Below, in pieces: positions 12,001 through 14,957 of a DNA stretch of 64,000 nucleotides. A program made the position numbers and the translations under genes. Where the stretch lies: contig NZ_JAIVAH010000027.1 in NCBI RefSeq assembly GCF_020171745.1, forward strand, positions 124,001-188,000, in the 5' to 3' direction. Source of the DNA: Prescottella equi. Lineage in GTDB: Bacteria > Actinomycetota > Actinomycetes > Mycobacteriales > Mycobacteriaceae. The notes under the pieces were generated by a model, which searched no databases, was not told the origin of the DNA, and saw nothing but the letters and a program-made list of their open reading frames with translations. Numbering within the stretch: position 1 is the stretch's first letter; the number at the start of each line of letters is the position of its first letter.

Positions 12001-14957
12001 CCCAGCGCCGCCGGTGTGACGAACGCATGCGTGACCCGCTCGTCGCGCAGCAGCGCGGTCAGTTCCGCGCCGCCGTAGATCGTGGGCGGGGCGATCACCA
12101 TCGTGGCACCCGCACCGAACGCGAGCATCAGCTCGAGCACCGACGCGTCGAAGCTCGGGGACGAGAAGTGCAGCGTGCGCGAGTCGGGGCGCACCCGGTA
12201 GCGGCGGCGTTCGTCCTCGGCGAAGTTCGCCAGCCCGCGGTGGGTGACGGTGACGCCCTTCGGGGTGCCCGTCGACCCGGAGGTGTAGATCAGGTATGCC
12301 GGGTTGCCGATGTGCACAGGCGCGAGTCGGTCCGCGTCGGTGACGGCGTCCGCCGGCCACTGGCGCACCTGCTCACCGAACCCGGGATCGTCCAGGACGA
12401 GGGACGGCACGATGTCCGCGACCGCGGCGGCGTGGGCCGCGACGGTCAGGGCCAGCGTCGAACCGGAATCGGTGAGCATGTGCTCGATGCGATCGGCCGG
12501 GTAGTTCGGGTCCACCGGGACGAACGCCGCACCGGTCTTGGCCACCGCCCACACCGACGACACCGACTCGATCGAGCGCGGCATCGACAGCGCCACCACC
12601 GATTCCGGTCCGACGCCCCGCGCGATCAGGAGACGGGCCAGCCGGTTCGAGTCCGCGTCGAGGTCGCGGTAGCTCAGCTGCCGGCCCTCGTACGACAGTG
12701 CGATCCGGTCGGGATCGGTGCCCGCGGCCGCGCCGAGGATATCCGCGAGCGTGCGCGGCTCGACGCCGTCACCGCCCCACACCCCGGACAGTCGACGGCG
12801 CTCGTCGTCGGCGAGCAGGTCGATGTCCGCGACCACCGCGGCCGGGTCTTCGAGCACCGCGTCGAGCACCCGGAGGTACCGCGCCGACAGCGTCTCGATG
12901 GTCTCCGCGTCGAACATGTCGGTTGCGAACGCGAACGACGCGCTCACCCCGTCCGGGACGCGGGTGCCGTCACCGTTGCCCGCGAAGCGTTCCTCGACGG
13001 TGAGCCGCAGATCGAGGGCGGAGATGTCGGGGCCGGTGTCCGCGCCACGCACGAACAGTCCCTCCTCCTTGAGGTGCGGGGTCCGTCCGTCGAGGAACTC
13101 GAGCATCACCTGGAACAGCGGCGAGTGCGCGTTCTCCCGGGTCCGGTCGAGCGCCTCGACCAGCTGAGCGAAGGGCGTCTCGGCGTGCCGGAAGGCCTGG
13201 ACATTGGAACGGCAGACGTCGGTGAGTAGTTCGTCGAACGTGATCCCCGACGACAGCCGCGTCCGCAGGGTCAGGGTGTTGACGAACTCCCCGGCCGCGC
13301 TGCGTCCGGTCACCGGTGTGCCGATCGCGACGTCGTCGACGTCGGCCAGGCGCGCCAGCACCACGACGAGCGCCGCGTGCATTGCGGCGAACACGGTGCA
13401 GCCGCGGGCTTCCGACTGCTCGATGACGGCGCGATGCACCGCCGCGGGGACTTCGAAATCGACACGGTCACTGGTGAGGGCGCGTCGGGCCGGGCGGGGC
13501 CGGTCCGACGGCAGCGAGAGGATGTCGGGCAGACCGGCCAGCTCGCGCGACCAGAACTCGAGTTGCGCGGCGGTGCGGAGCAACTGGGCCCCCACCGCCG
13601 AACTCTCGGTGTGGACGTCGGCGACGCGAGTGTCGGGCGACGCGAGGACGAACTCCTCGACGAGTTCGAGGAACCGCCGGTGGTGGGCGTGCAGCACGTC
13701 CTGCGAGTAGCGCCCCGGATTCGCCCGGAACTCGACGAATGTCCTTGTCGGAAAACCGCTCTGGACAAAGTTGACGAGGAGGTCCTCGACCGGGCCGGAC
13801 GTGACGATGTGGTATTCGCCCTCGATCTCGCCCAGGGTCATCTTCTGGTGGAACAGCATGACGTTGACCATCGGACCGGCCAGGCCGCGGGCGGTGCCGG
13901 TGAGCCCGGCGTCGCGTCGAATGTCCTCGATGCTGCACCGCTGATGACGCAGCGCGCCCATCAATTCCAGCTGGATGCGGCCGACCAGGTCGGCGACGGT
14001 GTCGTTCGGCAGCACCGTCGCCCGCAGCGGCGCGACGTTGACGAGCATGCCGCCGGATCGCTGCAGCGGCGCCGTCGTGCGGGCCGAGACGGGCATGTTG
14101 ACCAGGACGTCGGTGCGTCCGGTCAGGCGCGCGAGGTAACACGCGAACGCCGCGATGAGCACCGCCGCGGGGGTGGCCTCGAGCGTCCGGTCGGTGGAAT
14201 CGAGGGCCGCGATGACGGCGTCGGGCAGCGGTGCGCTCTCGACTCGGCTCACGGCGGCGACGGGCGCCTCCGTCTCGGCCAGTGTCGATCCCGACTCGAT
14301 CCCGGCGATGTGGTCGGCCCAGTACTCGCGGTCGGCCTGGAAGCGACTCGACGCCCGGTATTTCTGGTCGATCGCGAGCAGTTCCCGGAGATCGAGCGCC
14401 CGGTTCGGTTCCGGCTCCCGGTTCTCCACCGCGGCGGTGTACAGGGCGGCGATCCGGTTCGCCATCGTCATGCCGCTGTAGCCGTCCAGTGCGACGTGAT
14501 GGATCCTGGTGTACCACAAGTACTCTTGATCGCCGGTGCGCAGGATCGTCATGTCGATGAGGCGATCGCGGGTGAGGTCGATCGGCGTCGAGTAGTCGTG
14601 TTCCATCCACTCGCGAGCAGCGGAGCCGGGATCCGGGTGATCCCGCAGGTCCACCTGCCCGATCGAGGTGTCGGTGCCGGGGTCCACCAACTGGTACGGC
14701 TCCCCGTCCACGTCGATCAGGTGCAGGAACGGCGACTGGAACTCCTCGGTGGCCGCAACGGCACATCGACTCAACAGTTCGGTGTCGAGATCTCCGTGCA
14801 GCGTGACGTACTGCGCGATGAAGATGGGCACCGCCGGCGTGAGCTGCTGGGCGAACCACATACTTCGCTGCACCGCGGAGAGCGGAAACGCTTCCGGGGG
14901 GAGAGCCGGTGTGCCGGAACCGTGATCGGCCGGTTCCCGAGGTCCTGACATCGTCAT
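1..14957 (-). CDS. Multimodular non-ribosomal peptide synthetase, 3' end outside window
   Basis: One frame stays open from the ATG at 14957 to the left edge (4,985 codons, no stop), so the C-terminus is missing. A TAA sits immediately before the ATG, fixing the upstream limit; a second in-frame ATG at 14951 is possible. Domains by residue: C1 ~22-440 (HHVALDG, H153); half C ~453-730; A1 ~733-1223; T1 (LGGNSL, Ser1280); C2 ~1333-1780 (HHVAADG, H1465); A2; T2 (Ser2347); C3 (HHICADG, H2532); A3; T3 (LGGDSI, Ser3404); epimerase ~3460-3925 (HHLVVDG, H3590); C4 (HHILLDG, H4084); A4; T4 (Ser4938). A2 carries the pocket residues D-V-W-H-F-S-L-V-D, the classical serine code. A1, A3 and A4 start D-A-L-F with Gly at the 301-equivalent, suggesting hydrophobic substrates (inference). 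T3 has the GGDS form usual before epimerases, and C4 begins [11 protein letters not shown] like DCL domains, so residue 3 should be D. Product unknown; a leading C domain suggests acyl initiation or loading from another protein. Confidence 0.95.
12770..13600 (-). other. Half condensation domain (C-lobe only) inside NRPS module 1
   Basis: After the complete first condensation domain the protein resumes directly with the middle of a second one. The segment starts near QLEFWSREL (codons around 13560-13575) and includes [27 protein letters not shown] and [10 protein letters not shown], all C-lobe motifs that C2 and C3 also carry. The N-lobe of about 180 residues with HHxxxDG is absent, and residues 1-730 contain only one HHxxxDG, that of C1. 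The frame is intact on both sides, so this is an in-frame fusion and not a frameshift. It cannot catalyse condensation by itself. Confidence 0.8.

Follow-up and report, generated by a model that had tools for sequence, protein, structure and literature searches.

In nonribosomal peptide synthetases (NRPSs), initiation modules of the RzmA type run Cs-A-T, that is, a starter condensation domain (Cs), an adenylation domain (A) and a carrier domain (T) with no extra lobe. Departures from a complete condensation (C) domain are known from other synthetases. In the extracts of the published accounts used here, the loading module of ThdA (thermoactinoamide) carries an N-terminal truncated and presumably inactive C domain, termed C* (PMC7253712), the loading module of the fungal FmqA likewise has a truncated, presumably inactive C domain (PMC10212144), and the Aspergillus HcpA bears an incomplete C domain between two A domains that was interpreted as what remains of a lost module (PMC4041764). 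The same extracts present the X domain of glycopeptide synthetases as catalytically dead and descended from the LCL domain of a module since lost (PMC8949500, PMC1894796), the XUC exchange unit of NRPS engineering as CAsub-A-PCP-CDsub (PMC11546977, PMC10212144), and the floor loop and the latch as the two C-lobe segments extending across to the N-lobe (PMC7804268, PMC11546977). They further mention the C-A linker of a starter module (PMC7804268) and quote a precedent for A-domain selectivity being affected by C-lobes (PMC7253712). Within the open-licence literature, a scope outside which most subscription papers lie, we found no description of a starter C domain followed by half a C domain.

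Such an arrangement is present in Prescottella equi, in a stretch of 64,000 nucleotides (hereinafter the window; contig NZ_JAIVAH010000027.1, positions 124,001 to 188,000). An NRPS open frame reads from window position 14957 down to 3, where it is open at the window edge, its whole-genome length being 8932 aa. The domain string, assembled from the window and further stretches of the same contig with the A-T-TE tail read in locus L180, is Cs-halfC-A-T / C-A-T / C-A-T-E / C-A-T / C-A-T-E / C-A-T / C-A-T-TE. The features concerned are:

3 to 14957, minus strand: NRPS gene, first 4985 of 8932 residues, the remainder lying beyond the window on the same contig
13590 to 14897, minus strand: complete starter condensation domain Cs, residues 21–456, identified by Pfam, our own HMM and likeness to RzmA-Cs
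14481 to 14501, minus strand: HHVALDG motif of Cs, residues 153–159
13560 to 13601, minus strand: junction of Cs and half-C, falling on the boundary between N-lobe and C-lobe, about C-profile position 194
12786 to 13574, minus strand: half-C, C-lobe only, residues 462–724, no HHxxxDG, LCL type by sequence
13278 to 13313, minus strand: shortened floor-loop region of half-C, residues 549–560, within [16 protein letters not shown]
13020 to 13106, minus strand: latch region of half-C, conservation below that of full C domains
11238 to 12752, minus strand: A1 adenylation domain, residues 736–1240, docked on half-C in the model
11007 to 11207, minus strand: T1 carrier domain, residues 1251–1317, LGGNS site present
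15160 to 15432, minus strand: MbtH-like protein, upstream of the NRPS; Pfam PF03621

The initial annotation of this minus-strand gene had described a full C domain followed, ahead of A1, by the C-lobe of a second one that lacks an N-lobe and HHxxxDG, and the Pfam family PF00668 bears this out. The first match (residues 24–459 against profile positions 5–455 of 456) is a complete C domain with HHVALDG at 153–159, and a search for a hidden N-lobe in residues 440–757 returned only profile positions 192–455 (residues 463–723; 134.8 bits, E 4.6e-39). There is no room for an N-lobe, because Cs stops where the C-lobe begins. By sequence and in the AlphaFold model described below, the half-C is a C-lobe but has not the two lobes and the HHxxxDG of a complete PF00668 domain, and is the sole one among 66 PF00668 matches in its own genome to start at the lobe boundary. 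Those 66 condensation-family matches are spread over contigs C5, C6, C7, C13, C17, C27 and C32, and all except one sit in open frames whose lengths range from 2611 to 8932 aa. The domain upstream is a starter C domain in being N-terminal, nearest to known starter C domains and in possession of HHxxxDG, with RzmA-Cs (7c1k/7c1h) as its best solved relatives by sequence. The half-C looks like a truncated and dead C domain placed immediately ahead of the first A domain, though not at the N-terminus of the synthetase, which is occupied by the complete Cs. At such a site annotation tools may call a second C domain or an extra module.

In architecture and neighbours, rather than by a sequence match, the synthetase matches the humimycin (iupU) heptapeptide type. 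As extracted from Table 1 of PMC12024397, humimycin A is Tyr-Ser-D-Tyr-Phe-D-Thr-Val-Val, and the seven modules with E domains in modules 3 and 5 correspond to its D-Tyr3 and D-Thr5; A1 of the window is closest to A3 (0.64), both being Tyr in humimycin A. The seven A domains, the two E domains, the starter C, MbtH, and the N-acyltransferase-like and amidohydrolase neighbours would all fit IupU, whose cluster, neighbours included, is described in PMC5550956 as far as our extract extends. The portions of PMC5550956 and PMC12024397 used here make no mention of a half C domain. Genes for MbtH, a glycosyltransferase 2, an apolipoprotein N-acyltransferase-like protein and an amidohydrolase lie beside the NRPS on the minus strand (window 15160–19566). 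Further along the window are a DUF1254/DUF1214 protein (23353–24873) and, on the plus strand, an LMF1 lipase-maturation-factor protein (30486–31919) near a phage-integrase-family protein (32148–33347). The corresponding locus of P. equi DSM 20307 (L090) stands at 89%.

The 757-residue arrangement is present in one frame in 13 of 14 genomes of the genus, our own included, at 73–100% identity; twelve of them cover residues 1 or 2 to 757 and one covers 18–754, while the 14th genome (G003, 79% complete) has the pieces in broken frames. With 12 other genomes of the genus sharing the continuous frame and no support found for an artefact, the assembly collapse that had been flagged as a danger, or a frameshift, can for practical purposes be discounted: the half-C arrangement is neither an assembly error nor a recent deletion. 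Across 251 genomes of the family, 82 have a match at E ≤ 1e-140, and among the 150 matches listed 138 extend at least as far as residue 484 and 12 end at or before residue 458, counts that favour half-C holders because the query includes the half-C. All of the best 80 of 373 relatives in a named-genome scan have Cs and then a C-lobe only, these loci belonging to Prescottella, Rhodococcus, Rhodococcoides, Antrihabitans and Nocardia. The suspicion of a unique or recent case is therefore set aside, as the arrangement occurs throughout a clade of large synthetases that spans at least five named genera. Outside the family, no match was found among 298 genomes of the order (E ≤ 1e-120) or 246 genomes of the class (E ≤ 1e-90), both samples including family members. 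The cut is also constant in position: the half-C starts at positions 183–197 of a 452-position C-profile in 74 of 75 loci. A second set, overlapping the first, gives the same range for 85 of 85 halves; five of its 90 starter domains have no half (four Cs-A, one Cs-T). The most eroded half, that of L060, is a 20-bit remnant from profile position 237.

Concerning the origin of the half, all 40 representative halves have an LCL domain as their nearest full domain when the loops are left out, and their own starter C-lobes are far less identical, the labels LCL and DCL being assigned by best hit in this analysis, in which two of 12 E domains passed the length filter. Judged on sequence, the half-C derives from an elongation (LCL) C domain. 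Duplication of the starter's own C-lobe was considered and dismissed on the LCL-like character of the half, which in the window stands at 0.51 to its best own LCL domain and at 0.28 to the best Cs. The A domains behind 21 sampled halves are likewise nearest to those of elongation modules (17 behind LCL, 4 behind DCL) and in no case to an A domain directly behind Cs, although such domains made up only 6 of the 44 candidates.

When 174 starter domains are placed in a tree whose root is set by two divergent starter domains from the same genome, 160 Cs-halfC proteins and four Cs-T proteins fall in one clade and Cs-A is the older state (FastTree support 0.90). The four Cs-T relatives have neither half-C nor A. 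A reduced IQ-TREE set of 30 gives a UFBoot of 80 at the base of the half-C clade, and 71 or less at the nested nodes around a Cs-T paralog. When four more Cs-A proteins are added, two of them, L195 (G150:C3) and L196 (G039:C100), nest among the Cs-halfC proteins (support 0.97), and support for the deepest half-C node, the common ancestor, falls to 0.04. In both, Cs runs directly into A with about 10 residues between. No more than 10 to 14 Cs-A proteins enter these starter-domain trees, whose half-C rows were picked by a query containing the half. L195 and L196 appear to be natural removals of the half-C, which would be dispensable there because Cs is joined to A without it inside the half-C clade. 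The Fitch changes number two in the 174-domain tree and three with the additional Cs-A proteins; a single origin of the half-C, its base weakly supported, is most parsimonious on these trees, and in the simplest history the half would have been gained once, lost once along with A (the Cs-T group) and lost once by itself. In a tree of the C-lobe alone the halves are not monophyletic.

The same genome encodes on contig C7 a second large NRPS (L038; C7:214000-233500; 8165 aa) that starts Cs-T-C-A-T, its first module being a starter C and a carrier with an intact LGGDS and no A domain. Such a start is also found in L019 and L020, from two other genomes, with matches of similar size in most of the genus. 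The C7 paralog was entertained as a tandem-C (Cs-C) precursor and rejected, given its real layout and its branching inside the half-C clade, which makes it more likely a derived loss than an ancestor.

We compared the halves with full C domains along the C-profile, with the floor (positions 282–296) and the latch (357–383) mapped from RzmA-Cs. Against 41 full C domains of the own genome, the floor ranks first of 237 windows both for loss of conservation (3.10 to 0.91 bits) and for loss of occupancy (1.00 to 0.58). For the latch the drop is from 1.71 to 0.90 bits, and for the rest of the lobe only from 2.32 to 2.12. The floor again comes first when 128 distinct halves are set against 31 LCL domains alone, the half/LCL information ratio being 0.24 at the floor, 0.44 at the latch, 0.90 at the A-facing end and 0.56 to 0.81 elsewhere; by absolute information loss against LCL the latch is 36th of 184 windows. 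Both yardsticks (41 and 31 domains) come from one genome and the halves from many. The full set of floor markers (G282, R283, G293, F295) is retained by 40 of 41 full C domains and by 12 of 12 E domains, as opposed to 15 of 75 halves, 21 of 128 distinct halves and none of eight starter domains. Since the starter domains of the own genome depart from these markers despite having both lobes, the floor test rests on the LCL, DCL and E domains. In the window, the floor-loop region is six residues shorter than in the C domains of DhbF, Txo1 and Txo2, as aligned. Taken together, the alignments show a specific loss of the floor loop, and in part of the latch, from the half-C, whose A-facing end is conserved.

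This pattern bears on the idea that the half-C shares lobes, pairing with the C-lobe of Cs or with an N-lobe in trans to build a second condensation site. The half-C does abut the C-lobe of Cs with hardly any linker, but it is precisely the N-lobe-contacting floor loop that is lost most, 107 of the 128 distinct halves being without at least one of the four marker residues, and a pattern search recovers HHxxxDG in none of 75 halves as against 72 of 75 starter domains; we regard lobe sharing as highly improbable. The three starter domains without an intact motif by this pattern are those of L016, L028 and L067. In three Nocardia loci (L130, L138, L147) the half-C has a canonical-looking floor loop, and L130 and L138 stand at 0.56–0.59 to the best LCL domains compared with 0.37–0.39 to the median of the other halves. 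By their sequences, these Nocardia halves may be either the least decayed or refreshed by exchange.

An AlphaFold model of Cs-halfC-A1 (75 sequences) has a mean pLDDT of 89.3 and a pTM of 0.70, with ten-residue pLDDT means of 73 to 96 over the half-C. In this model the floor of the half-C is replaced by a tight strand-turn-strand (525–536 / 539–550), where Cs has a short helix. Superposed as one body, half-C and A1 fit the C-lobe plus A of Txo1 at 1.8 Å over 635 residues (6ozv) and at 2.0 Å over 635 (6p3i), and Txo2 at 2.9 Å over 644 (6p1j), whereas alignments spanning the model from Cs to A1 give about 19–21 Å. From this difference we conclude that the half-C, and not Cs, appears in the model to take the usual C-lobe seat on A1, the position of Cs being uncertain.

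The half evolves faster than its neighbours, and this is the first of several observations that speak for its being a non-functional remnant of a deleted module, self-folding and decaying neutrally save for not misfolding. Its dN among genus orthologues is 0.196 compared with 0.132 in full C-lobes, and its mean identity over 69 loci is 0.37 as against 0.57 for Cs and 0.58 for A. Strongly eroded members exist, such as the remnant in L060; there is clean secondary loss in L195 and L196; and in the Cs-T group the half has gone together with A. What such a remnant accounts for poorly is the manner of its evolution. In six close pairs the omega of the half-C is about 0.17, inside the 0.13–0.21 range of full C lobes (0.13–0.14 for their C-lobes, 0.17–0.21 for their N-lobes), and W200, R267, D273, R302, R421 and E447 are conserved at 0.94–1.00 across 128 distinct half rows, R421 and E447 well above their level in LCL domains. 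Moreover, loss is greatest at the N-lobe contacts and least at the A-facing end: in genus orthologues the floor, with a dN of 0.322, is the fastest part of the half, while in C2 (0.046) and C3 (0.085) it is the slowest part of the C-lobe, although the floor omega in the six close pairs (0.15) does not stand out. These rates and residues show the C-lobe of the half-C, at the level of its sequence, to be under purifying selection. We hence consider a pure scar unlikely; yet, because L195 and L196 do without the half, a slowly decaying scar stays the main rival.

The same fixed residues could alternatively be read as the surface of a recruitment platform, by which a dead C-lobe would bring in a partner such as an acyl donor or an acyl-activating or tailoring enzyme in the manner of an X domain. 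Dead C-type domains acting as platforms have precedent in the consulted part of PMC8949500, and R421, L443 and E447 are more fixed in the halves than in LCL domains. Their position, however, places these extra-conserved residues toward the A-facing end, and two relatives, again L195 and L196, manage without the half, so that we see little likelihood in such a role.

We therefore favor, as the probable explanation, an ancient module-deletion or fusion scar that has been kept as a structural C-lobe/A platform, predicted to be docked on A1 and to lack catalysis. Of the possibilities initially listed, namely a deletion scar, a starter-C insertion and a retained structural linker, a combination is what finds support: an old deletion-or-fusion scar that is also a structural unit on A1. 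On this account, a stretch such as A1-T1-C2(N-lobe) would have been lost from a Cs-A-T-C-A-T line, or Cs would have been joined to a C-lobe-A unit; as the original event, deletion and fusion are equivalent here and cannot be told apart. The half-C would then have been retained since A1 had evolved upon a C-lobe platform, and might hold, shield or tune A1. Cs is predicted to N-acylate residue 1 on aminoacyl-T1 across the half domain, thereby starting peptide synthesis, with the half-C predicted to have no catalytic role. Subsequently, the half-C would erode and, in some lines, be lost.

More tentatively, and with less conviction than we attach to the retained scar, we suggest that the half-C may be a distinct domain type, a C-lobe re-adapted through its hairpin floor and fixed A-facing residues to cradle or tune A1 under a complete Cs. 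If true, this would amount to a long-lived C-lobe/A exchange unit of natural origin, and engineers could fit a starter C onto an LCL module by making the cut at the lobe boundary and retaining the C-lobe. Living genomes offer a graded series from a canonical-looking floor (the three Nocardia loci) through trimmed and strongly eroded halves to absence, which suggests which parts of the C-lobe serve the N-lobe and which the A domain. This is relevant to the choice of cut sites in assembly lines and to the way starter C domains are relocated in lipopeptide synthetases, the humimycin type included.

Set against the described systems, the half-C resembles the truncated domain of ThdA in being a truncated C domain before the first A domain, for which the ThdA authors, in the part of their paper used here, suggest a possible influence on A selectivity (PMC7253712). 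The likeness to ThdA and FmqA concerns the truncation of a C domain, whichever lobe those enzymes keep. In ThdA, as far as the extract describes it, the truncated domain is the N-terminus, whereas the half-C has a complete starter C on one side and A1 on the other, and its conservation extends across genera. With HcpA it has in common an internal C-domain fragment as the trace of a lost module; that fragment, by the extracted account, is in contrast a 177-residue insertion in one fungal enzyme and does not follow a starter C. With RzmA-Cs (7c1h), which acts in lipoinitiation, the locus shares a complete upstream starter C with HHxxxDG. The XUC, compared by its extracted description rather than by the exact cut site, has its natural counterpart here in a cut between the two C subdomains that keeps the C-lobe and A together; in the XUC the C-lobe is rejoined to another N-lobe, while the half-C stays an orphan behind a complete C domain. 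Finally, like the X domain in the accounts extracted, the half-C would be a catalytically dead-looking LCL descendant from a lost module. In contrast to the half-C, X domains keep both lobes; they act as platforms for P450 enzymes.
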